A DNA stretch of 38,896 nt from an uncultured Clostridia bacterium (GTDB lineage Bacteria > Bacillota > Clostridia > Oscillospirales > Butyricicoccaceae). Both the position numbers and the translations under genes were made by a program. Location: the NCBI GenBank assembly GCA_945872165.1, contig CAMBYS010000002.1:1-38896 (forward strand), in the 5' to 3' direction. The number at the start of each line of letters is the position of its first letter. Within the stretch, counting starts at the first letter, position 1. The notes under the pieces are model-generated. The model was not told the origin of the DNA and did not search any database. It saw only the letters and a list, made by a program, of their open reading frames with translations. Positions 712-38,896 of this stretch are shown one piece after another.

Positions 712-1406
712 GCGAACACCTCCCGGAACAGTGCGTCAACAGATTTGCCATATTCCTCACGGATATCATCCACGGTCTTATGCAGGGTAATCTGTCCCTG
801 ATGGAGGAAAATGACATCGTCCAGTACCTTTTCAATATCCGAAATCAGATGGGTGGAAATGACAACGGTACTGTTTTCGTTATAATTGGTCAAAATCGTA
901 TTGAGAATATAATCCCGGGCAGCGGGGTCAACACCGCCAATCGGTTCATCCAGCAGGTACAGGTCAGCTTCACGGCTCATGACCACAGCCAGCTGGATTT
1001 TTTCTTTGGTTCCCTTGGACATGGTTTTGAGGGAATCCTTGGGGCTGATGCCCAGACGGGTCAGCATATCCGCTGCCTTATCCAGATTGAAATCCTCATA
1101 AAAATTGGAAAAGAATTTCAACAGGTCATCTGCGGTCATCCAGTCGCTCAGATAGGTACGTTCCGGCAGATAGGAGACCTGGGCATGGGTGATGGGACCG
1201 GGCAGATTGCCTGCAATGCGGATTTCACCGGCAGTGGGGGTGAGCAGGCCATTGGCCAGCTTAATCAGAGTGGATTTGCCGCTGCCATTGGGACCCAGCA
1301 GACCCACAATGCGTCCACGCTCCAGGGCAAAGGTCACATCCCGCAGGGCATCCTTTTTACCATAGGATTTGCATAATCCGGTACACTGTAAAATCGGTTC
1401 GCTCAT
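705..1406 (-). CDS. ABC transporter ATP-binding protein
   Basis: Walker A GPNGSGKST, signature-like SKGTKEKIQLA, Walker B LYLLDEPIGGVD; overlaps the GntR gene (operon). Confidence 0.93.
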   Translation of the reverse strand: MSEPILQCTGLCKSYGKKDALRDVTFALERGRIVGLLGPNGSGKSTLIKLANGLLTPTAGEIRIAGNLPGPITHAQVSYLPERTYLSDWMTADDLLKFFSNFYEDFNLDKAADMLTRLGISPKDSLKTMSKGTKEKIQLAVVMSREADLYLLDEPIGGVDPAARDYILNTILTNYNENSTVVISTHLISDIEKVLDDVIFLHQGQITLHKTVDDIREEYGKSVDALFREVFAC

Positions 1407-1774
1407 TTCTCTTCCTCCTTTTCTGCCTGACGAATCAGTTCAATGGTTTCCTCGGTGGAATATCCCATGTCCTTCATGGAGGACAGAAATGCCTGAATCT
1501 GTTCCATAGCCAGTTCCTTTCTCTTTTGTGTGATGTTTGCAAATTGATCGGTGACAAACCGTCCTGCGGTGCGCTGGGAATACAGCAGACCGGAACGCTC
1601 CAGCTCGGACAGGGCACGCTGCATGGTGTTCGGATTGACACCTGCCTGTGCCGCCAGCTCACGGACGGAGGGCAGTCTGCTGCCTGCCGGCAGTGCACCG
1701 GAGGTGATGGCCAGTGTGATGGTGTCCATCAGCTGCAGGTAAATCGGACGGTTATCTGATAAATTCCACTGCAT
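1403..1774 (-). CDS. GntR-family transcriptional regulator (YtrA-like)
   Basis: N-terminal wHTH LQLMDTITLAITSGALPAGSRLPSVRELAAQAGVNPNTMQRALSELERSGLL; followed by ABC ATPase and permease as in Ytr-type operons. Confidence 0.92.
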   Translation of the reverse strand: MQWNLSDNRPIYLQLMDTITLAITSGALPAGSRLPSVRELAAQAGVNPNTMQRALSELERSGLLYSQRTAGRFVTDQFANITQKRKELAMEQIQAFLSSMKDMGYSTEETIELIRQAEKEEEK

Positions 1775-1849: not shown

Positions 1850-1962
1850 GAGGAAAATAAAAATTTTTTTCCACAGCCGGTCAATTCGTTGCGGTAGACA
1901 ACGGGGAAATGTACCCTATTATAATGCCTGTGAGCTGCAAAAATTGAAACCATAAGGGAGGT

Positions 1963-2226
1963 ATGCCTTTGGCGCAAGCAAAAAACAGCCGCAGACGGAA
2001 AAAAACACACAATGATGTGGTACGGGATATCCTGTGTGAGCATTCCCCGGAAGCGGCGCAGTGCCTGTGTGACATGCTGGAGGATGATTCCCTCAGCGGA
2101 ACCGCAAGAGCAGGTGTTGCAAAGGAAATCCTGGAACGGGCTGTGGGAAAGGGACAGCTTTCCGTACCGGAGACAGAGGACAAACCGGAGTCAGCCTTTG
2201 AGCTGATTCTCCGGGTGGTGGAATGA
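1963..2226 (+). CDS. Putative phage terminase small subunit-like protein
   Basis: 87 aa, basic N-terminus, directly upstream of and overlapping the large terminase ORF; assigned by position. Confidence 0.5.
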   Translation: MPLAQAKNSRRRKKTHNDVVRDILCEHSPEAAQCLCDMLEDDSLSGTARAGVAKEILERAVGKGQLSVPETEDKPESAFELILRVVE

Positions 2227-3530
2227 TGGAGCTTTCGGTTACCCGCAGGCAGCTGGAATTTATCCGTTCCACCGCCATGGAAACCCTGTTCGGCGGTGCG
2301 GCAGGCGGTGGGAAAAGCTATGCACAGCTGATTGACGCATTGATTTATGCTCTGACCTATCCGGCATCCCGCCAGCTGATTTTGAGAAGAACCCTGCCGG
2401 AGCTCAAACGCTCCCTGATTCAGGTTTCCCTGACCCTATATCCCCAGGAGGTGGGAAGCTATGGGGAAACCAGCCATTTATGGACATTCCGCAACAAATC
2501 CACCATTGAATTTGGCTACTGCGACAGCGAAAATGATGTGACCCGGTACCAGAGTGCCGAATATGATGTGATCCGGTTTGATGAGCTGACTCATTTTACC
2601 AAATTCCAGTTTACCTATATGTTGTCTCGTATCCGTGGCACGAATGCCTATCCCAAACAGGTAAAATCCTCCACCAATCCGGGCGGTGTGGGTCACAGCT
2701 GGGTCAAGGCACGGTATATTGATGTGCTGATTCCCGGTGAGGAATCGGATGGAAAATTATTTCTTCCCGCCAAAGTGCAGGACAACACCTTCCTGATGCA
2801 AAAGGATCCCGGCTATGTCAAACGGCTGGAAATGCTGGATGAGCGGAGCCGCAAAGCCCTGCTGTATGGACAGTGGGATCTGTTTGAAGGTCAGTATTTC
2901 TGTGAATTTTCCCCGGAGCTGCATGTTTGCCCGCCACCGGAATTCCCCAGCTGGTGGAAACGGTATCTTGCCATTGATTATGGTCTGGATATGCTGGCGG
3001 CTTTGTGGATTGCCCTGTCTCCGGACGGTACCGCCTGGGTGTATCGGGAGGTATACCAGTCCGGTTTGATTATTTCCGAGGCGGCGGAGGCAATCTGCCG
3101 TGCGGAAACCGGTGATGAGGTGATTTTCCAGCGGCTGGCACCGCCGGATTTATTCAACCGGCGGCAGGAAACCGGACGTTCCGCTGTGGATATCTTTGCC
3201 GAAGCCGGATTGTTTTTCGACAAGGCCATGGGGGAACGGATTGCCGGCTGGTATGCCGTCAAAGAATACCTTCGACCGTTTACCGATGAGCAGGGCATTC
3301 TGACGGCAAAGCTGAAAATCAGCCCGGTGTGTAAAAATCTCATCCGTACCTTGCCCATGCTGGCGGCGGATGAAAAAAATCCCAATGATACGGCGAACCA
3401 TCCCCATGAGCTGACCCATGCGCCGGATGCTCTGCGGTATTTTGCCGCTACCATCCAGCCCCAGGGACAGGCATGGAAGCCGGGACAGTCTGACGGCGAT
3501 ATGGACGCCTTTCTGTCCTATCAACGATAA
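2223..3530 (+). CDS. Phage terminase large subunit
   Basis: Walker A-like LFGGAAGGGKSYAQ, RRTLPELKRSL, nuclease-like LAIDYGLDMLAALW segment; 435 aa. Confidence 0.92.
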   Translation: MMELSVTRRQLEFIRSTAMETLFGGAAGGGKSYAQLIDALIYALTYPASRQLILRRTLPELKRSLIQVSLTLYPQEVGSYGETSHLWTFRNKSTIEFGYCDSENDVTRYQSAEYDVIRFDELTHFTKFQFTYMLSRIRGTNAYPKQVKSSTNPGGVGHSWVKARYIDVLIPGEESDGKLFLPAKVQDNTFLMQKDPGYVKRLEMLDERSRKALLYGQWDLFEGQYFCEFSPELHVCPPPEFPSWWKRYLAIDYGLDMLAALWIALSPDGTAWVYREVYQSGLIISEAAEAICRAETGDEVIFQRLAPPDLFNRRQETGRSAVDIFAEAGLFFDKAMGERIAGWYAVKEYLRPFTDEQGILTAKLKISPVCKNLIRTLPMLAADEKNPNDTANHPHELTHAPDALRYFAATIQPQGQAWKPGQSDGDMDAFLSYQR

Positions 3531-3540
3531 GGAGGAAGCG

Positions 3541-3747
3541 ATGGAATATGTAATTTGCTGTCTGTGCAGTCTGCTGTGCTTTGCCTGCGGCGTATGGGCA
3601 GCCAGAGGAATCCCCCATTTGCCGCGGCGGAAGAACAAACAGGAACCTCTCCGTCCCACTGATGCGGAGGATGCACTGAGCCGGGATATTGCGGCGCTGC
3701 TGGCATATACCGGTCCGGGAAAGGAGGAGGAAGATGCGGACAGCTGA
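3541..3747 (+). CDS. Small protein with N-terminal TM segment, between terminase and portal
   Basis: MEYVICCLCSLLCFACGVWAARG... ; SD-like AGGAGG upstream; overlaps the portal start. Confidence 0.6.
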   Translation: MEYVICCLCSLLCFACGVWAARGIPHLPRRKNKQEPLRPTDAEDALSRDIAALLAYTGPGKEEEDADS

Positions 3748-5302
3748 CGCGGTATGGAAGGAATACCAGCGGGGTGTGGATTATAACAACCGGATTGGCC
3801 TGTATGACCGGGTCAAAACCAATGAAAATTTCTTTATCGGACGGCAGTGGGAAGGATTGAATGTCACCACATTGGACCCGTTGATTTTCAATGTACTGCG
3901 GCGTGTGGTCAATCTATTCATTTCTATGCTGGTATCGGATGATATCGCTGTGACCACGCAGCCGTTTCAATCAGCACCGGATAAAGAAACCATGCAGAAG
4001 GTGATTGATCGTGCTGTGGCATCGGTGATTGAACGTGCCGGCATGAAAAGCAAAAACCGTTATATGCTGCGCAATGCCTGTGTGGATGGGGATGGATGCT
4101 TTTATATCCGTTTTGACCCGGATCGGGAAAGCGGCCAGCCCATTGCCGGGGATATTGAAGTGGATCTCATTGAAAATACCGATATCTTTTTTGGCAATCC
4201 TGCAGTAGATGAGGTACAGCGTCAGCCCTATCTCATCATTTCCATGCGCCGGTCAGTGGACAGTGTCCGGCAGGAAGCCATGGCCCGGGGATTAAGCCGC
4301 AGTGAAGCGGAAAATATCCAGCCGGACAGCCTGCTGGAGCCTCAGTATGATCCCCAGACCGAGGACACCGACAACATGGTGACAGTACTGCTGCGTATGG
4401 AACGCACCAAAGATGGCATTGCCTTTTTCAAGTGCACCCGGAATACCGTTATCATGCCGGAGACAGTGACACCGTACCGGCTGTATCCGGTGGCATATAT
4501 GAGCTGGATGAAGGTGAAAAACTGCTTCCATGGCGAGGCACCGGTGACCGAAGCCATTCCCAACCAGATTGCCATTAACAAGCTGTATTCCATGTATGTG
4601 CAGTGCATCAAGCATGTGGCATTCCCCAAGATCATCTATGACATGACCCGGTTCCCCTCCGGCTATTCTTCCGATGTAGGAAAAGCCATCGGCATGCGGG
4701 GCAATCCCAATGAAGCTATTGTCACGGCATTCCAGGCACCGGACATTTCCGCACAGGTCATGCCGCTGCTGGAGCAGATGATTAAGGATACCATGGAGCT
4801 GATGGGTGCGTCCGATGCGACCCTTGGCAATGTCAAGCCGGACAATACCTCCGCGATTGTGACGGTACAAAAGGCAACCATTGCGCCGCTGGAGCTGGTA
4901 AAAATGGAATTTTACCGCTTTGTGGAGGATACGGTACGGATTTTTGTGGATTTAATGCGTGTCCATTACGGTACCAGAACGGTTTGCATTACCGATGATA
5001 CCGGAGAAGAAACGGCAGTATCCTTTGATTTTGACACACTGGATACCGCCACACTGGAACTGAATGTAGAGGTAGGCTCCAGTTCCTACTGGTCAGAGAC
5101 CATGCAGACCATGACCAATGACAATCTGCTGGCCCGGGGCATTATCACAGACCCGATTCTGTATGTGGAAAATATCCCGGACAACCAGATTCGCGGCAAG
5201 GCCCGCCTGCTGCGTGCTCTGCGGGAACAGAAGGAAAGCGGACAGATGACCGAAATCCAGCCCCGGAAGAATGTGGAAACACAGCAGACAACCCAGCAGT
5301 AA
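3734..5302 (+). CDS. Phage portal protein
   Basis: ~522 aa from MRTADAVWKEYQRGVDYNNRIGLYDRVKTNENFFIGRQWEG; position after terminase and portal-like composition. Start chosen at 3734 (after GGAGGAAG) instead of 3689. Confidence 0.85.
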   Translation: MRTADAVWKEYQRGVDYNNRIGLYDRVKTNENFFIGRQWEGLNVTTLDPLIFNVLRRVVNLFISMLVSDDIAVTTQPFQSAPDKETMQKVIDRAVASVIERAGMKSKNRYMLRNACVDGDGCFYIRFDPDRESGQPIAGDIEVDLIENTDIFFGNPAVDEVQRQPYLIISMRRSVDSVRQEAMARGLSRSEAENIQPDSLLEPQYDPQTEDTDNMVTVLLRMERTKDGIAFFKCTRNTVIMPETVTPYRLYPVAYMSWMKVKNCFHGEAPVTEAIPNQIAINKLYSMYVQCIKHVAFPKIIYDMTRFPSGYSSDVGKAIGMRGNPNEAIVTAFQAPDISAQVMPLLEQMIKDTMELMGASDATLGNVKPDNTSAIVTVQKATIAPLELVKMEFYRFVEDTVRIFVDLMRVHYGTRTVCITDDTGEETAVSFDFDTLDTATLELNVEVGSSSYWSETMQTMTNDNLLARGIITDPILYVENIPDNQIRGKARLLRALREQKESGQMTEIQPRKNVETQQTTQQ

Positions 5303-5367
5303 AACAATGACACAAGGGCTCCTGCTGATGCGGGAGCAGGAAACAACAGAAAGGAGGCTGCTTTTTT

Positions 5368-5835
5368 ATGCAGAACAAAACCAATGCGGCGCCGGAAACC
5401 GGTGCGCCGAAGGACATGCCGCTGAGGGACAGTGAGGAACAGACCTATGCGGTCAATGTGGATGGCCAGACCATGGAGCTGACACTGGAACAGCTGATTG
5501 CAGCGGCAGAACAGGGACTGTCCAAGGCCAATGCCGCCGCATATCGTGGACAGGCAGCGGAAAATATGCCGGGCGGCAATGTTTATCAGGCATTTCTGGA
5601 GGAATATCCGGAAATTCAGCCGGATGAAATCCCGCCGGAGGTGTGGGATAACGCAAACCGTTCCGGTGACCTGCTGGGCGCATATCGCGTTTATGAGCTG
5701 CACAAGCTGCGCAAGGAGCTGGAAGAACTGAAAAAGAATGCGGAAAACCGTAAACTGGATGTGGGTTCGGCACGCTCCGACGGGGAAAACAACATCACAG
5801 ATCCCATCATTCTCGCACTGATGGGAAAGGGCTAA
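5368..5835 (+). CDS. Putative capsid scaffolding protein
   Basis: 155 aa, acidic/helical (ELEELKKNAENRK), between portal and capsid; SD AAGGAGG upstream. Confidence 0.6.
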   Translation: MQNKTNAAPETGAPKDMPLRDSEEQTYAVNVDGQTMELTLEQLIAAAEQGLSKANAAAYRGQAAENMPGGNVYQAFLEEYPEIQPDEIPPEVWDNANRSGDLLGAYRVYELHKLRKELEELKKNAENRKLDVGSARSDGENNITDPIILALMGKG

Positions 5836-5849
5836 GGAGGTAAATAGAT

Positions 5850-6902
5850 ATGGCAGTAAATCTTGCGACAAAATATTCCAGTCAGATTGCAGAAGTCTTT
5901 ACAGCAGGTTCCTTTGTCAAGGGGAAAACTTCCACAACCTTTGACCTGACCGGTGTCAAGACCCTGAAGGTATATACCCCGGTGACCGTACCGGAGGTGG
6001 ATTACACCCGTGAGGGTATGACACGCTATGGCACCGTGACAGAAATGCAGGACATTGTGCAGGAGCTCAAGATGACACAGGATAAGGCGTTTACGCTGAC
6101 CATTGACAAGGGCAATTATCTGGATCAGAACATGAGCAAAAAGGCGGCAGATATGCTGCGTCTGCAGATCAATGAACAGTCCACACCGGCGGCAGACAAG
6201 TATGCCCTCAGACGGTTTGCCATGATGGCAGGTACCATTGCTACTGTGGATGAAGCACCCTCCAAGGACACCATTGTGGAGCTGATTTCCACCGGTGCCC
6301 AGGTGCTGGACGATAATCTGGTACCGGAAAGTGACCGTTATGTCTATGTGACCAGCGAGGTATACAAAATGATCCGCCTGTCTCCGGAATTTACCGGACT
6401 GGAGGGTCTGGGTGTGAAGTCCATTGGAAAGGGCGTATGCGGTGAGATTTCCGGCCTGAACATCGTGCGTGTGCCGAAGAGCTATATGCCGGAGGGCTGC
6501 TACTTTATCATCACCCATAAAAATTCCGTGCTGATGCCCTATAAGATTTCTGACGCAAAGGTGCACAATGACCCGGTAGGCGTTTCCGGCGCACTGATTG
6601 AAGGCAGACATTATTATGATGCCTTTGTACTGGGTGCCAAGTGTACCGGTGTGTATGCACTGGTGCTGGCAAAGAATAAGCTGGCAGCACCGACCATCAG
6701 TATTTCCAGCCTGAAGGCAACGGTAACGGCACCCTCCGGTGCAGAAGAGGTGCGCTATACTGTGGATGGCACTGATCCTCGTTATTCCGACAGTGCAAAG
6801 GTGTATGCCGCACCGGTTACACTGACGGCGGGTACCACCATCCGCACGGCAGCATTTGCCGCAGGCAAGTTTACCTCTGATCTGGCAGAGGCTTCCTGCT
6901 GA
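5850..6902 (+). CDS. Phage major capsid protein with C-terminal Ig-like/CHB_HEX_C-like domain
   Basis: 350 aa after portal/scaffold; C-terminus VRYTVDGTDPRYSDSAKVYAAPVTLTAGTTIRTAAFAAGKFTSDLAEASC resembles the chitobiase/beta-hexosaminidase C-terminal repeat (YTxDGTxPxxxS...Y..PxxL..tTxIkAxA). Confidence 0.8.
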   Translation: MAVNLATKYSSQIAEVFTAGSFVKGKTSTTFDLTGVKTLKVYTPVTVPEVDYTREGMTRYGTVTEMQDIVQELKMTQDKAFTLTIDKGNYLDQNMSKKAADMLRLQINEQSTPAADKYALRRFAMMAGTIATVDEAPSKDTIVELISTGAQVLDDNLVPESDRYVYVTSEVYKMIRLSPEFTGLEGLGVKSIGKGVCGEISGLNIVRVPKSYMPEGCYFIITHKNSVLMPYKISDAKVHNDPVGVSGALIEGRHYYDAFVLGAKCTGVYALVLAKNKLAAPTISISSLKATVTAPSGAEEVRYTVDGTDPRYSDSAKVYAAPVTLTAGTTIRTAAFAAGKFTSDLAEASC

Positions 6903-6984
6903 ACCAGTCAGGCAGCGGCGGGCGCGTGATGCGCCCGCCCGCTGTGTATACACGGCATGTTTCCCATTGAAAGGAGGAAAAACA

Positions 6985-7368
6985 ATGACTGGCAGACAGC
7001 TGTATGAACAGGCCCTGGTGCTTCTGGGGCTGGAGGCGGAAAATGTGCCGCATCTGGAAGAAATGGCGCCTGGCTGTATCAACCAGATGCTGTATGACCG
7101 CAATTATGAGCAGAATGCGCTGCTGCGTGCACAGGGGGATGAAGCTGCCCTGACAGGCTGTGTTCCCGCAGCAGGGCTGGACAGTCTGGAGGAGGAAATT
7201 CCCTATGACGAACGGTTTGTACAGGAATGCTTCCCCTATGGACTGGCAGCCCTGCTGATTGCGGAGGATGACCGCACCATGTTCAACTGGTTGATCAGTG
7301 AATATCAGCAGCATGCGGCGTATTATGCGCCGTGTACCGAAACCATCATCCGTGGAATGGAGGAATGA
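6985..7368 (+). CDS. Putative head-tail connector/adaptor protein
   Basis: MTGRQLYEQALVLLGLEAENVPHLEEMAPGCINQMLYDRN..., ~127 aa acidic helical, directly after the capsid gene; SD AAAGGAGG. Confidence 0.55.
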   Translation: MTGRQLYEQALVLLGLEAENVPHLEEMAPGCINQMLYDRNYEQNALLRAQGDEAALTGCVPAAGLDSLEEEIPYDERFVQECFPYGLAALLIAEDDRTMFNWLISEYQQHAAYYAPCTETIIRGMEE

Positions 7369-7370
7369 GC

Positions 7371-9152
7371 ATGGTATATCAGTTCCCGGATGCGGAGCCC
7401 ATACAGGAGCTGACAGTGGAACGGTTTGCCGGTGTGGATTTTGCCAACCATCCTACCAAGGTGGACTGGTCCCGTTCTCCGGATGCCTGCAATATGATCG
7501 CCAATGAAACCTATTTTCCGGTAAAGCGCACCGGATACCGGTGCAGGGCGCAGTTTGACGGTGCCATTTATGGACTGCACCGGCTGGATGAGGATGTGCT
7601 GTGCCATGCGGGCACACATCTGTGGCGGCTGAAGCAGGATGGCACCACGGAACTGCTGTATTCTGATATGCATGAAGCACCCTCCACCTCCTTCCTGATG
7701 AATGGAAAGCTGTGGATGCTGGATGGAAAAACCTATCTGGTATATGACGGCAGTACGGCAAGACCGGTGCGGGAGGTAGCTTTTATTCCCACCACCACCA
7801 TCGGCAGTCCGCCGGGTGGCGGCGGCACCAGTCTGGAAGCAGTCAACCTGCTGACACCCTGGCGTATCAATACCTTTGTAGGTGACGGCACCAGCAAGGT
7901 ATTTCAGCTGGACAGTACCTTTATTGATCTGGATGATGTGGTATGTGAAGGCTATGAGGTGGATCATGTGGACACTGCCAGCGGCAAGGTGACATTGAAA
8001 ACCGCACCGCCGGATGCCGGCGGACTGGCCAATGTGCGTATCCGGTTTGCCAAGACCACCGAACATATTGATATCAATGCCTGCCGGATTTACGGTCTGT
8101 ACGGCGGTAAAAATGATACCCGTGTCTTTGTCTCCGGCAATCCGGAAGCGCCGAATTGTGACTGGCAGTCCGGTTTATATGACCCGACCTATTTCCCGGA
8201 TACCGGGTATACCAAAATCGGCTCGGATGCATCGGATATCATCGGATATGTCCGGCAGTATGATACCCAGATTGTATTGAAATCCGATGGACAGGATGCC
8301 AAACAATATCTGCGCACCTTCCAGCTGGATGCCAATGACAAGCCCACCTATCCATTGAAGCAAGGCGCTGAGGCGGCGGGCGCCATCAGCCCTTATGCCA
8401 TTGATGTGCTGGACGGCACGCCATATTATCTGTCTGCCCAGGGTGTGATGGGCATTTATGGCACCTATGTCACGGAATACCGTACCATTGCCGGTGTTTC
8501 CCAGCGCATCAATCCCCGGCTGCTGCAGGAACCGCTGGATCAGGCGGTGGCCTGTGTTTGGGATGGAAAATATTATCTGGCTGTTGGCGGGCATTGTTAT
8601 GTGGCAGACAGCCGGCAGATGGAAAACAATATCCCGGAATGGTACTATTGGGACAATATTCCTGCTCTCTGTTTTCTGGCAGATGCGGATACCAGCGGCA
8701 ATCTGTGGTTTGGCACGGCAGACGGAAGGGTGTGCACCTTCTGCCATGTGGACGATGTGGATGCCTATTCCGATGACGGAGCTCCCATTGCCGCACGCTG
8801 GGTGACGCCATTGTCTCCGTTGGGAGCATGGGAAAAGGGGAAAACCATCCTGGCCTGTCAGGCAGCTTTGATGCCCTATGGATATTCCGGCGCAGAGCTG
8901 TGGTATCGCACGGAAAAACTGCATGCCTGGGTGAAAACCGTGGTATTTTCCCAGTTTTCCTTTGCACATATGGATTTTTCCCGGTTTTCCTTCCGTTCCA
9001 CGGCGGCATCTTATCCGGCAGATGTCCGCCGGCGCATCCGACGGGCCTATCAGTTCCAACTGATTGTGAAAAATGAACAGGAGGGTGAGCCCTTTGGATT
9101 GCTGGGCATGACCATACGGTATATTGTGCGCAGGGATGTACGCCGGATCTGA
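7371..9152 (+). CDS. Putative podovirus-type tail nozzle/stabilization-like protein
   Basis: ~593 aa, beta-rich, repeated WDGKYYLAVGGHCYV / LWFGTADGRV segments; N-terminal DACNMIANETYFPVKRTGYRC reminiscent of short-tail tubular/nozzle proteins. By-eye resemblance. Confidence 0.5.
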   Translation: MVYQFPDAEPIQELTVERFAGVDFANHPTKVDWSRSPDACNMIANETYFPVKRTGYRCRAQFDGAIYGLHRLDEDVLCHAGTHLWRLKQDGTTELLYSDMHEAPSTSFLMNGKLWMLDGKTYLVYDGSTARPVREVAFIPTTTIGSPPGGGGTSLEAVNLLTPWRINTFVGDGTSKVFQLDSTFIDLDDVVCEGYEVDHVDTASGKVTLKTAPPDAGGLANVRIRFAKTTEHIDINACRIYGLYGGKNDTRVFVSGNPEAPNCDWQSGLYDPTYFPDTGYTKIGSDASDIIGYVRQYDTQIVLKSDGQDAKQYLRTFQLDANDKPTYPLKQGAEAAGAISPYAIDVLDGTPYYLSAQGVMGIYGTYVTEYRTIAGVSQRINPRLLQEPLDQAVACVWDGKYYLAVGGHCYVADSRQMENNIPEWYYWDNIPALCFLADADTSGNLWFGTADGRVCTFCHVDDVDAYSDDGAPIAARWVTPLSPLGAWEKGKTILACQAALMPYGYSGAELWYRTEKLHAWVKTVVFSQFSFAHMDFSRFSFRSTAASYPADVRRRIRRAYQFQLIVKNEQEGEPFGLLGMTIRYIVRRDVRRI

Positions 9153-9169
9153 GGAGGTAACAGCATAAA

Positions 9170-9802
9170 ATGGCAACGATTAATATTGACGAATTATACC
9201 GCGCAGCGGAAACCAGCAGGCTCAATGCCTTTCAGACCGCGCAGCAGGAAAGTCTGGACCGGCTGCAGGGAAACCTGCGGGATATTGGGGAAACCCATCG
9301 CAGCAATGTGACACAGGCCCAGACAGCGGCACGGATTTCTGCCCTGGGACAGGAGGAAAAGCTGGCGGCAGCAGGACTCAGCGGCGGCAATGCCTATGCA
9401 GCGCCTACCAGCGGATATACCGAAAGCTCCCGGGTGGCAGCGGACAATACCCTGCGCAGCAATCTGAATACCCTGTCTGTGGAACGGCTGAAGGCGGAAC
9501 AGGAGGCACGCAATACCAGTGCTTCGGAAATTTCCCAGGCAACACAGGACTATCACAATGGACTGGCTTCCATTCAGCTGCAGAAAGCACAGGCGAAAAT
9601 TTCTCAGTACAATGAGGACAGGAATTATAATTATAATGTGAAAAAGACCGCATATGAACAGGCCATGGAACGTTGGAAAACCTATGGCGTTGTGCTTCCG
9701 GCAGATGCCTCGATTCTGGGCGTCAAGGCTGGAACACGCACGGCCAGCAGTGCCTATGACAATGCAAGGCTTGCATTGGATCGCTGGAAAGCCACGTTAT
9801 AA
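9170..9802 (+). CDS. Putative internal/ejection or minor virion protein (coiled-coil)
   Basis: 210 aa rich in A/Q/N/S with long helical stretches (QESLDRLQGNLRDIGETHRSNVTQAQTAARIS...); last gene before the terminator. Confidence 0.5.
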   Translation: MATINIDELYRAAETSRLNAFQTAQQESLDRLQGNLRDIGETHRSNVTQAQTAARISALGQEEKLAAAGLSGGNAYAAPTSGYTESSRVAADNTLRSNLNTLSVERLKAEQEARNTSASEISQATQDYHNGLASIQLQKAQAKISQYNEDRNYNYNVKKTAYEQAMERWKTYGVVLPADASILGVKAGTRTASSAYDNARLALDRWKATL

Positions 9803-9807
9803 GCAAA

Positions 9808-9842
9808 AAAAATCCCGCAGACATCCAATCTGCGGGATTTCA
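9808..9842 (+). terminator. Rho-independent, probably bidirectional terminator of the head operon
   Basis: AAATCCCGCAGA-catccaa-TCTGCGGGATTT hairpin directly after the last phage ORF, convergent with the antiporter gene. Confidence 0.85.
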
Positions 9843-9856
9843 TATATCACATAATG

Positions 9857-11038
9857 TTATGCCTTTTTCTTGTCACCCATAACGATTTTCAGCAGGATTG
9901 GGGTAATCAGGGTTGTGACAATAACAACCAGAATCACCGGACCGAACAAGCTGTCCGGTACCAGACCAAATGCGGCACCCTTCTGGGCAACGATCAGAGC
10001 AACTTCACCACGGGATACCATGCCGATACCAACCGACAGGGCTTCATGGTTTGTGAATTTGAACAGCTTCGCACCCAGTGCACAGCCGATAATCTTGGAA
10101 AGGATAGCAACAACCAGCAGCAGCAGTGCGAACACCAGCAGGCTGACGGTCAGACCGCTCAGGTCAGTTTTCAGACCTACACTGGCAAAGAATACCGGGG
10201 AAAACAGCATATAAGCACAGATGGTAATTTTCTGGCTGATATAATCACGGACGCCGGACAGGTTGCAGAGCAGAAGGCCGGCAAAATATGCGCCGGTGAT
10301 ATCTGCAACACCGAAAAAGGTTTCAGAGCAATAGGAGAGAATGAAGCAGAATGCCAGGCCATAAATGGCAACACGGCGGTGCATCTTATCGTTGAAAGCC
10401 TTGTTCAGATGCTTGAAGTATTTGTAGACCACAAAGCCCACAACGGCAATAAACACAAAGAACAGGACAATTTTAATCAGGACAGTCAGAATCTGGACAT
10501 CCGGATTGGTGAAGCTGGATACGATCGTCAGGGCGATGATACCCAGGATATCGTCGATGACAGCAGCACCGAGAATGGTAACACCCACCTTGCCCTGCAG
10601 TTTTCCCATCTCAAGCAGCGTTTCAACTGTGATGCTCACAGAGGTAGCAGTCAGGATAACGCCGACAAAGATAGCCTTTAACAGATGCTGGGGATCTCCT
10701 TCACCGTTGAACCACACGAGGTACAGGGCAGCACCGCCGAGAAGCGGAACAATAACACCTACCATGGCGATGACAAAGGAGGCAACACCGGTTTTTTTCA
10801 GCTCCTGCAGGTCGGTTCCCAGACCGGCAGAAAACATCAGCATGATAACACCGATTTCAGAAAGAACGGTAATGACACTGTCTTCCGTAACAAGGTTCAG
10901 AACGGAAGGTCCGAGAATGAGGCCTGCGAGCAGTGCGCCTACAACCTGCGGCATGTTGACTTTGCCGGAAGCAAGGCCCAGCACCTTCGTGGACAGAAGG
11001 ATAATTGCCAGAACCAGCAGGAAAGTATAGTTTTCCAT
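9857..11038 (-). CDS. CPA2-type cation:proton antiporter
   Basis: 393 aa, ~12 TM; LGLASGKVNMPQVVGALLAGLILGPSVLNLV and GAAVIDDILGIIAL motifs typical of Kef/Nha-type exchangers. Confidence 0.9.
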   Translation of the reverse strand: MENYTFLLVLAIILLSTKVLGLASGKVNMPQVVGALLAGLILGPSVLNLVTEDSVITVLSEIGVIMLMFSAGLGTDLQELKKTGVASFVIAMVGVIVPLLGGAALYLVWFNGEGDPQHLLKAIFVGVILTATSVSITVETLLEMGKLQGKVGVTILGAAVIDDILGIIALTIVSSFTNPDVQILTVLIKIVLFFVFIAVVGFVVYKYFKHLNKAFNDKMHRRVAIYGLAFCFILSYCSETFFGVADITGAYFAGLLLCNLSGVRDYISQKITICAYMLFSPVFFASVGLKTDLSGLTVSLLVFALLLLVVAILSKIIGCALGAKLFKFTNHEALSVGIGMVSRGEVALIVAQKGAAFGLVPDSLFGPVILVVIVTTLITPILLKIVMGDKKKA

Positions 11039-38685: not shown

Positions 38686-38762
38686 GGCGGTGTAGCTTAG
38701 TTGGCTAGAGCGTCCGGTTCATACCCGGAAGGTCATAGGTTCAAGTCCCATCACCGCTACCA
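38686..38762 (+). tRNA. tRNA-Met (CAT), elongator-like
   Basis: Cloverleaf with anticodon loop TTCATAC, stem TCCGG/CCGGA, encoded CCA. Confidence 0.93.
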
Positions 38763-38766
38763 TTTT

Positions 38767-38841
38767 GGCCCGTTGGTCAAGCGGTTAAGACACCGCCCTT
38801 TCACGGCGGTAACACGAGTTCGATTCTCGTACGGGTCACCA
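38767..38841 (+). tRNA. tRNA-Glu (TTC)
   Basis: Acceptor GGCCCGT/ACGGGTC, anticodon loop CTTTCAC, encoded CCA. Confidence 0.93.
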
Positions 38842-38843
38842 AT

Positions 38844-38896
38844 GGAAGTTTAGCTCAGCTGGGAGAGCATCTGCCTTACAAGCAGAGGGTCACAGG
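38844..38896 (+). tRNA. tRNA-Val (TAC), truncated by the window end
   Basis: GGAAGTTTAGCTCAGCTGGGAGAGCATCTGCCTTACAAGCAGAGG; anticodon loop CTTACAA. Confidence 0.9.

Follow-up and report, generated by a model that had tools for sequence, protein, structure and literature searches.

A vertically inherited podovirus-like virion operon with an unlinked tail-fibre gene, likely a split gene transfer agent, in a genus of Butyricicoccaceae

A compact operon of phage virion genes in an uncultured gut bacterium of the Butyricicoccaceae is inherited vertically and likely belongs to a podovirus-like gene transfer agent (GTA) comparable to FpGTA and split in two, the tail fibre being encoded at an unlinked locus. 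That particles are produced, package DNA, are released by lysis and transfer genes, and that the RNA pairing discussed below has an effect, is inferred: neither particles nor packaged DNA nor transfer have been demonstrated in this organism. GTA-like elements of this kind were first described in 2026 with the FpGTA of Faecalibacterium (Borodovich et al., Nat Commun 2026, PMC12946183). As a split system the present one is real and new; what is new here is the association of an unlinked fibre gene with the operon, the covarying leaders of both loci in two genera, the pairing of fibre and S-layer genes in related genera, and a prophage residing in the capsid gene. The window, that is, the whole stretch of DNA that was analysed, is 38,896 nucleotides long; three tRNAs lie at its end (38686-38896), namely tRNA-Met, tRNA-Glu and another that is only partial.

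The operon is made up of nine open ORFs, all on the + strand and tightly packed with short overlaps, which span positions 1963-9802 (~7.9 kb) and whose content corresponds to the virion genes of a short-tailed phage of P22/Pagevirus type. They encode, in order, a TerS-like small terminase of 87 aa (1963..2226), assigned by its position before the large terminase; the large terminase TerL (2223..3530; PHROG 979, 7e-48; Pfam Terminase_6N); a small protein that has a single membrane segment at its N terminus and is conserved within the lineage (3541..3747); a P22-like portal (3734..5302; Pfam P22_portal, 2e-10; PHROG 156); a scaffold-like protein recognised by its position and by profile matches in relatives (5368..5835); the major capsid protein (5850..6902; PHROG 422, 1e-37), with a C-terminal Fn3-associated domain (Pfam Fn3_assoc, 9e-10); a head-tail adaptor-like protein, whose function is inferred from position and conservation (6985..7368); a tail nozzle/hub protein (7365..9152; PHROG 3287, 2e-26); and a coiled-coil virion-like protein (9170..9802), whose possible role in ejection is likewise inferred. 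The nozzle structure model matches the PDB nozzles of P22 gp10 (8.8e-9), Sf6 gp8 and T7 gp12, and the capsid model matches HK97-fold capsids; both models are of low confidence (mean pLDDT 51 and 58, respectively) and served only to back up the sequence matches. The nearest complete phages are Pagevirus phages of Bacillus megaterium, to a protein of which the nozzle/virion protein is 31-34% identical over its length. Since every gene has full-length homologues in relatives, the locus is far beyond chance. The preliminary description of nine intact same-strand phage ORFs between host genes is thus upheld by the ORFs, the profile homology and the flanks, with the starts of the portal (3734), small membrane protein (3541), adaptor (6985) and nozzle (7365) corrected. 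Its view that there is nothing else has to be amended: the short-tail set is complete except for the fibre, which is found on another contig.

The operon promoter (1895..1922, + strand) was assigned from the aligned upstream regions of 10 genus-mates and is thus a consensus with no mapped transcription starts; it has a -35 TAGACA at 1895-1900 and a -10 TATTAT at 1917-1922. A TATAAT previously pointed out at 1920-1925 is present as letters, but across the genus the conserved hexamer is TATTAT. Upstream of the promoter lies a DnaA-box-like element, TTTTTTCCACAG (1868..1880, + strand), which reads TTATCCACAG in several relatives; in the aligned regions CACA is invariant and CCACAG nearly so. The role of this TTWTCCACA element is inferred from sequence alone. 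It was also observed 5' of the fibre gene in genomes G008 and G011. A terminator had been suggested at the operon end and is confirmed as the hairpin AAATCCCGCAGacatccaatCTGCGGGATTT (~9808..9841, no strand assigned), common to the operon and the convergent Na+/H+ antiporter gene (9857..11038, - strand). This antiporter, followed further downstream by ferredoxin and ClpC genes, is the downstream host flank; upstream are a GntR-family regulator (1403..1774, - strand; Pfam GntR and synteny) and, beside it, an ABC ATPase (705-1406), identified like the antiporter by synteny. Searches for an Rfam match inside the operon and for a plasmid-borne copy of it found none.

The operon is present in 11 of the 12 genomes of the genus (its own included, which has a single TerL), and in all nine genus-mates with a readable flank it occupies the same site, beside the GntR/ABC genes, the antiporter or both. 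Its ORFs are full length in the genus members, the lone interruption being a prophage in the capsid gene of G008. Internal stops that seemed to affect the portal, adaptor and nozzle of some relatives are confined to over-extended upstream ends. Compared with the closest relative, omega is 0.03 for TerL, 0.03 for the capsid and 0.06 for the portal; against the three closest relatives the values are 0.02-0.03, 0.03-0.06 and 0.04-0.06, and 0.02-0.2 over the operon genes, similar to the host neighbours. The trees of the module and of its flanks have 4 of 5 splits in common and nearly equal branch lengths, although their topologies are not identical (identity is rejected by the AU test). The one genome without the operon, G004, has a clean empty site in which the GntR gene adjoins the antiporter with ~160 bp between them and the terminator retained. 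G004 is nested inside the genus, and the empty site therefore reflects a precise loss. The operon has thus been vertically inherited, under strong purifying selection, at a fixed site.

These observations bear on the possibility that the locus is a recently trimmed or decaying prophage. The genes do descend from a P22/Pagevirus-like phage, and full elements with holin, lysin and fibre occur in relatives. Nevertheless, the operon is intact in every genus member that could be read through, omega is well below 0.3 in all genes, and the operon is old enough for TerL identity between genera to have fallen to 62% at conserved positions. Nor does the locus meet the definition of a temperate prophage, as it has no integrase, lysogeny or replication genes. 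On conservation, selection and the comparison of module and flank trees, a recent prophage remnant was rejected, and this scenario is all but excluded. The preliminary description had offered three options, a domesticated GTA-like particle, a satellite and a freshly trimmed prophage, of which the first is supported and the last rejected. The synteny comparison it proposed gives a fixed site across the genus and vertical inheritance, which favours domestication, and dN/dS on terminase and capsid is host-gene-like. It had also stated that a full prophage with a recent deletion, decay of the ORFs or absence in close relatives would refute its view; none of these was met, the sole empty site being a secondary loss and so no refutation by absence.

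The distribution of the operon extends beyond the genus (hereafter g1). TerL homologues are found in 142 of 197 members of the order, and in the related genera g6, g10 (genome G032) and g12 the nine genes occur in the same order with a TerL identity of ~62-65%. More generally, relatives in the family have the same gene order between housekeeping genes. In g6 the operon sits between FtsK/flavin reductase/UppP and enolase/phosphoglycerate mutase; the upstream neighbours in G022 are common with g6, and one downstream neighbour is common with G032. In the TerL tree, g1, g6, g12 and G032 form one clade that follows the genera. The coiled-coil protein is specific to this lineage, being conserved in g1, g6, g12 and G032, and a search for a phage match to it found none. 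Gene order, sites and the TerL tree indicate an ancient vertical spread of the operon among genera.

Alternatively, the operon could belong to a helper-dependent capsid-forming satellite that is mainly inherited vertically. Such an origin would agree with a structural set devoid of replication and excision genes and cannot be excluded in principle. Yet no integrase, excision, replication, mobility, lysogeny, primase or regulator genes were found at the locus, which lies between host genes in g1 as well as in g6; the integrase, own replication or transfer module that defines a capsid-forming satellite is lacking, and the element is not moving, as its fixed site, its host-like phylogeny in the genus and its ancient spread among genera attest. 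TerS, in addition, lacks the domain that would give specificity, and the satellite hypothesis is thus very unlikely. A helix-turn-helix was sought in TerS with Pfam without a match, whereas the TerS of other related elements (L082, L084, L091) carry one at the N terminus. From the absence of a DNA-binding domain it may be inferred that packaging is non-selective and involves chromosomal DNA; this support for random packaging of host DNA is at most indirect.

Further compact operons of 8-12 kb lie between host-like genes in the order (L090, L091 and L092 from other g10 genomes, L077, L067, L068, L070); several have holin, endolysin and fibre in one locus, and those of g10 have conserved flanks. 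In related compact elements, the nozzle is followed by a fibre with a conserved N-terminal motif and then by holin, endolysin and a coiled-coil protein. It is possible that the related compact operons are further, independently domesticated GTAs of Oscillospirales. Some short "phage" or "viral" records are made up of such operons, namely MT836592 (9588 bp), MT836833 (10829 bp) and L253 (IMG/VR, 7475 bp), and entries taken for viruses may include GTA loci or packaged fragments.

A profile of the conserved N-terminal fibre motif of the related compact elements was used to search for the missing fibre. The genome studied here has exactly one fibre gene (contig C48, ~4082-4804; PHROG 14469 tail fiber, 5e-13), unlinked to the operon, and each operon-bearing genus-mate searched also has one unlinked fibre gene, flanked in g1 by host genes. 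Fibre genes are present in 11 of 11 operon-bearing members of the genus and in 18 of the 26 other operon-bearing genomes of the family lineage, a homologue being undetected in the remaining 8; across the family they occur in 29 of 37 genomes with the operon versus 1 of 36 without it (Fisher p = 6e-12). No fibre gene was found in G004, the operon-less genome (88% complete). The operon and the fibre gene thus occur jointly across the family. The lysis genes that the preliminary description had suggested looking for elsewhere were sought in the genus and no partner was found. GH25 and Amidase_2 matches in g1 were discarded as candidates: they look like host cell-wall genes, and the amidase is also present in G004.

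The two loci have similar promoters, with a GACA-type -35, a spacer of 16-17 bp and a TATTAT-like -10, and the 5' ends of their predicted transcripts are complementary. In the genome studied here, the leader element GTGAGCTGC (1930..1938, + strand) has its complement, GCAGCTCAC, at the 5' end of the transcript of the unlinked fibre gene, on contig C48 just 5' of the fibre start near 4082; from ~7 nt past the -10, the operon transcript reads GUGAGCUG and that of the fibre gene CAGCUCAC. Both loci have changed in G010, to GUGAACUG/CAGUUCAC, as they have in G008 and G011, to GUAAGCUG/CAGCUUAC, and the leaders of G006 pair with one bulge. The g6 leaders are quite different yet complementary: CGGGAAAGUAAGCG with CGCUUACUUUCCCG in G069, where the complementary element (12-14 nt) is found in the leaders of all six fibre copies, and GACAAGC with GCUUGUC, or with G-U wobble, in other g6 species. 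Of the genomes of g1 and of the g6 group, 26 were tested; 23 of these have complementarity over ~+1 to +14 of both predicted transcripts, with compensatory changes. It is absent or unresolved in G049, G077 and G034 of the g6 group, and likewise in G022 and G032. Cognate leaders bind better than non-cognate leaders of the same group, both in g1 (p = 1e-4, 11 genomes) and in the g6 group (p = 5e-5, 15 genomes, one of them from g12), and pairs between both groups are at background level. The duplex energy in the genome studied here is not exceptional alone, as 2.8% of random windows do as well; single-genome energy was excluded as evidence and the case is built on position and covariation. The leaders were placed from consensus promoters, some anchored by hand patterns, and not from mapped starts. 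The covarying complementarity in two genera is thus shown for the predicted 5' ends.

Two scenarios may explain this covariation. The bolder one is that the mRNAs from both halves of a split, domesticated virus base-pair directly at their very 5' ends and so coordinate the halves, the paired sequences having evolved in a compensatory way species by species; this reading may equally well prove right or wrong. Trans pairing of two mRNA leaders is not known to hold a split GTA together, and no such case was met in the literature searched. The main rival, which concerns the coupling only, is that both motifs represent a single DNA operator, inverted at one promoter relative to the other and bound by a common regulator without any RNA duplex. 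The motif does lie right at the transcription start in both promoters, and other promoter parts are also common to both loci in G008 and G011. Nevertheless, the motif varies within one genus and always does so in both loci, it is wholly different in g6 while remaining complementary, and several differences are G-U compatible or bulges. The operator thus seems the weaker hypothesis, without being negligible, and RNA pairing the simpler reading.

In g6, GAACATTTGTTC-like boxes are found at the -35 of the operon promoters. Boxes of the form GAAC-N4-GTTC overlap the operon promoters in g6 and g12 (L055, L057-L061 and L053, 5' of TerS), and in G022 they are found in both the operon and the fibre promoters (fibre: L175, L176). 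These are likely LexA-like sites that would place the loci under SOS control, an inference from sequence alone. The genus g1 has no such boxes and has the DnaA-box-like TTWTCCACA upstream instead. The fibres of g6, g10 and g12 have a conserved stalk start and variable tips, are present in 1-7 copies, and in all examined loci but one are placed tail to tail with genes for SLH-domain proteins of ~800-1200 aa (Pfam SLH, 1e-22 to 1e-25). Such cassettes often take the form SLH> <fibre fibre> <SLH, with several copies per genome (L171 and L172 in G069, L173 and L174 in G032, L175 and L176 in G022, L169 in G016, L178 in G034). Each cassette would combine a receptor-binding protein with an S-layer of its own and might direct particles to kin.

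These features leave room for another scenario, in which the domesticated particle resembles PBSX: it would package host DNA, yet its effect on neighbouring cells would be killing or competition and not gene transfer. In its favour are the variable, multi-copy, S-layer-paired fibres of g6, g10 and g12 and the LexA-like boxes of the g6 operon promoters; the authors of FpGTA also keep open a killing or competing role (PMC12946183). Like PBSX of Bacillus subtilis, the operon would represent a defective phage particle kept in a Gram-positive genome, with SOS-controlled promoters by appearance in g6. PBSX differs from the present locus, however, by its long contractile tail and by possessing lysis genes and a regulator of its own. 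Since the nozzle and portal resemble functional injection machinery, tail genes of tailocin type are lacking and g1 has a single fibre gene, this scenario is unlikely, and a gene transfer agent remains the preferred explanation.

The interruption of the G008 capsid gene is a serine-integrase prophage inserted at codon ~82-85 (L051:8069-9540, L052:8335). In two IMG/VR contigs from separate metagenomes, an integrase with 80% identity adjoins the capsid gene at this very position (L304:3559-5273, L305:4537-6251). The GTA capsid gene thus serves as attB for a prophage that integrates there repeatedly, recalling comK-type lysogeny.

Among known systems, the closest is FpGTA, which forms ~40 nm particles containing ~9 kb of DNA and has split operons, the second with fibre and lysis genes, and a TerS with no obvious DNA-binding domain (PMC12946183). 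The present locus shares with it a compact podovirus-like operon (TerS without DNA-binding domain, TerL, portal, scaffold, capsid), the lack of replication genes, a fibre at a separate locus, the order Oscillospirales and fixation in one genus. It differs in its family, in size (7.9 kb and nine genes versus 10.5 kb and 10 genes) and in the second locus, where only the fibre was found and no holin and endolysin. Thus, the operon I content, the TerS and the second, unlinked fibre locus of FpGTA are matched and the lysis genes are not; as its authors did not detect locus II in seven strains (PMC12946183), holin and endolysin are not a strict criterion. Leader complementarity, S-layer pairing and attB use are found here and are absent from the bearing sections of that paper. 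The likeness rests on the published description with no direct sequence comparison; no Faecalibacterium genome was recognised among the genomes searched by 16S signature or 16S BLAST (best match 95%), the BLAST route serving only as a lead. Several traits generally expected of a GTA are present as well: the terminase, portal, capsid and tail genes are intact and of phage origin, genes for integration, excision and replication are missing from the locus, and inheritance is vertical, with a fixed site and purifying selection. RcGTA and CcGTA of Alphaproteobacteria are likewise vertically inherited, domesticated virion operons with genes over several loci, but they are siphovirus-like with long tail genes, whereas the present locus is short-tailed. 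The Pagevirus phages Page, Pony and Pookie are full-length (~40 kb), whereas only ~8 kb of virion genes are found here. The P22-type portal and nozzle fold recall the short-tail machine of P22 and Sf6, although the operon has neither tail needle nor tailspike, its fibre is unlinked and its capsid belongs to another HK97-fold family with an Fn3-associated domain.

According to the proposed GTA model, cells expressing the operon would assemble small HK97-fold capsids around the scaffold, which TerL and the TerS without DNA-binding domain would fill non-selectively with chromosomal DNA through the portal. The adaptor and nozzle would close the filled capsids, to which the tail fibre from the unlinked gene would then be added. 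The complementary mRNA 5' ends would tie both loci, probably through RNA-RNA pairing by which the supply of fibre is adjusted to capsid production, and the particles would be released by lysis and delivered to kin. Outside Alphaproteobacteria, only a few GTAs are known. In 2026, several groups of gut Clostridia were reported to show GTA-like packaging without the genes being found. With this locus a second bacterial family is added, vertical inheritance can be followed from genus to genus, and a searchable gene set becomes available. The covarying leaders suggest a simple way to keep the scattered genes of a domesticated virus in step, and the fibre/S-layer cassettes and the capsid-gene prophage make recipient recognition and the conflict between phages and GTAs directly testable.
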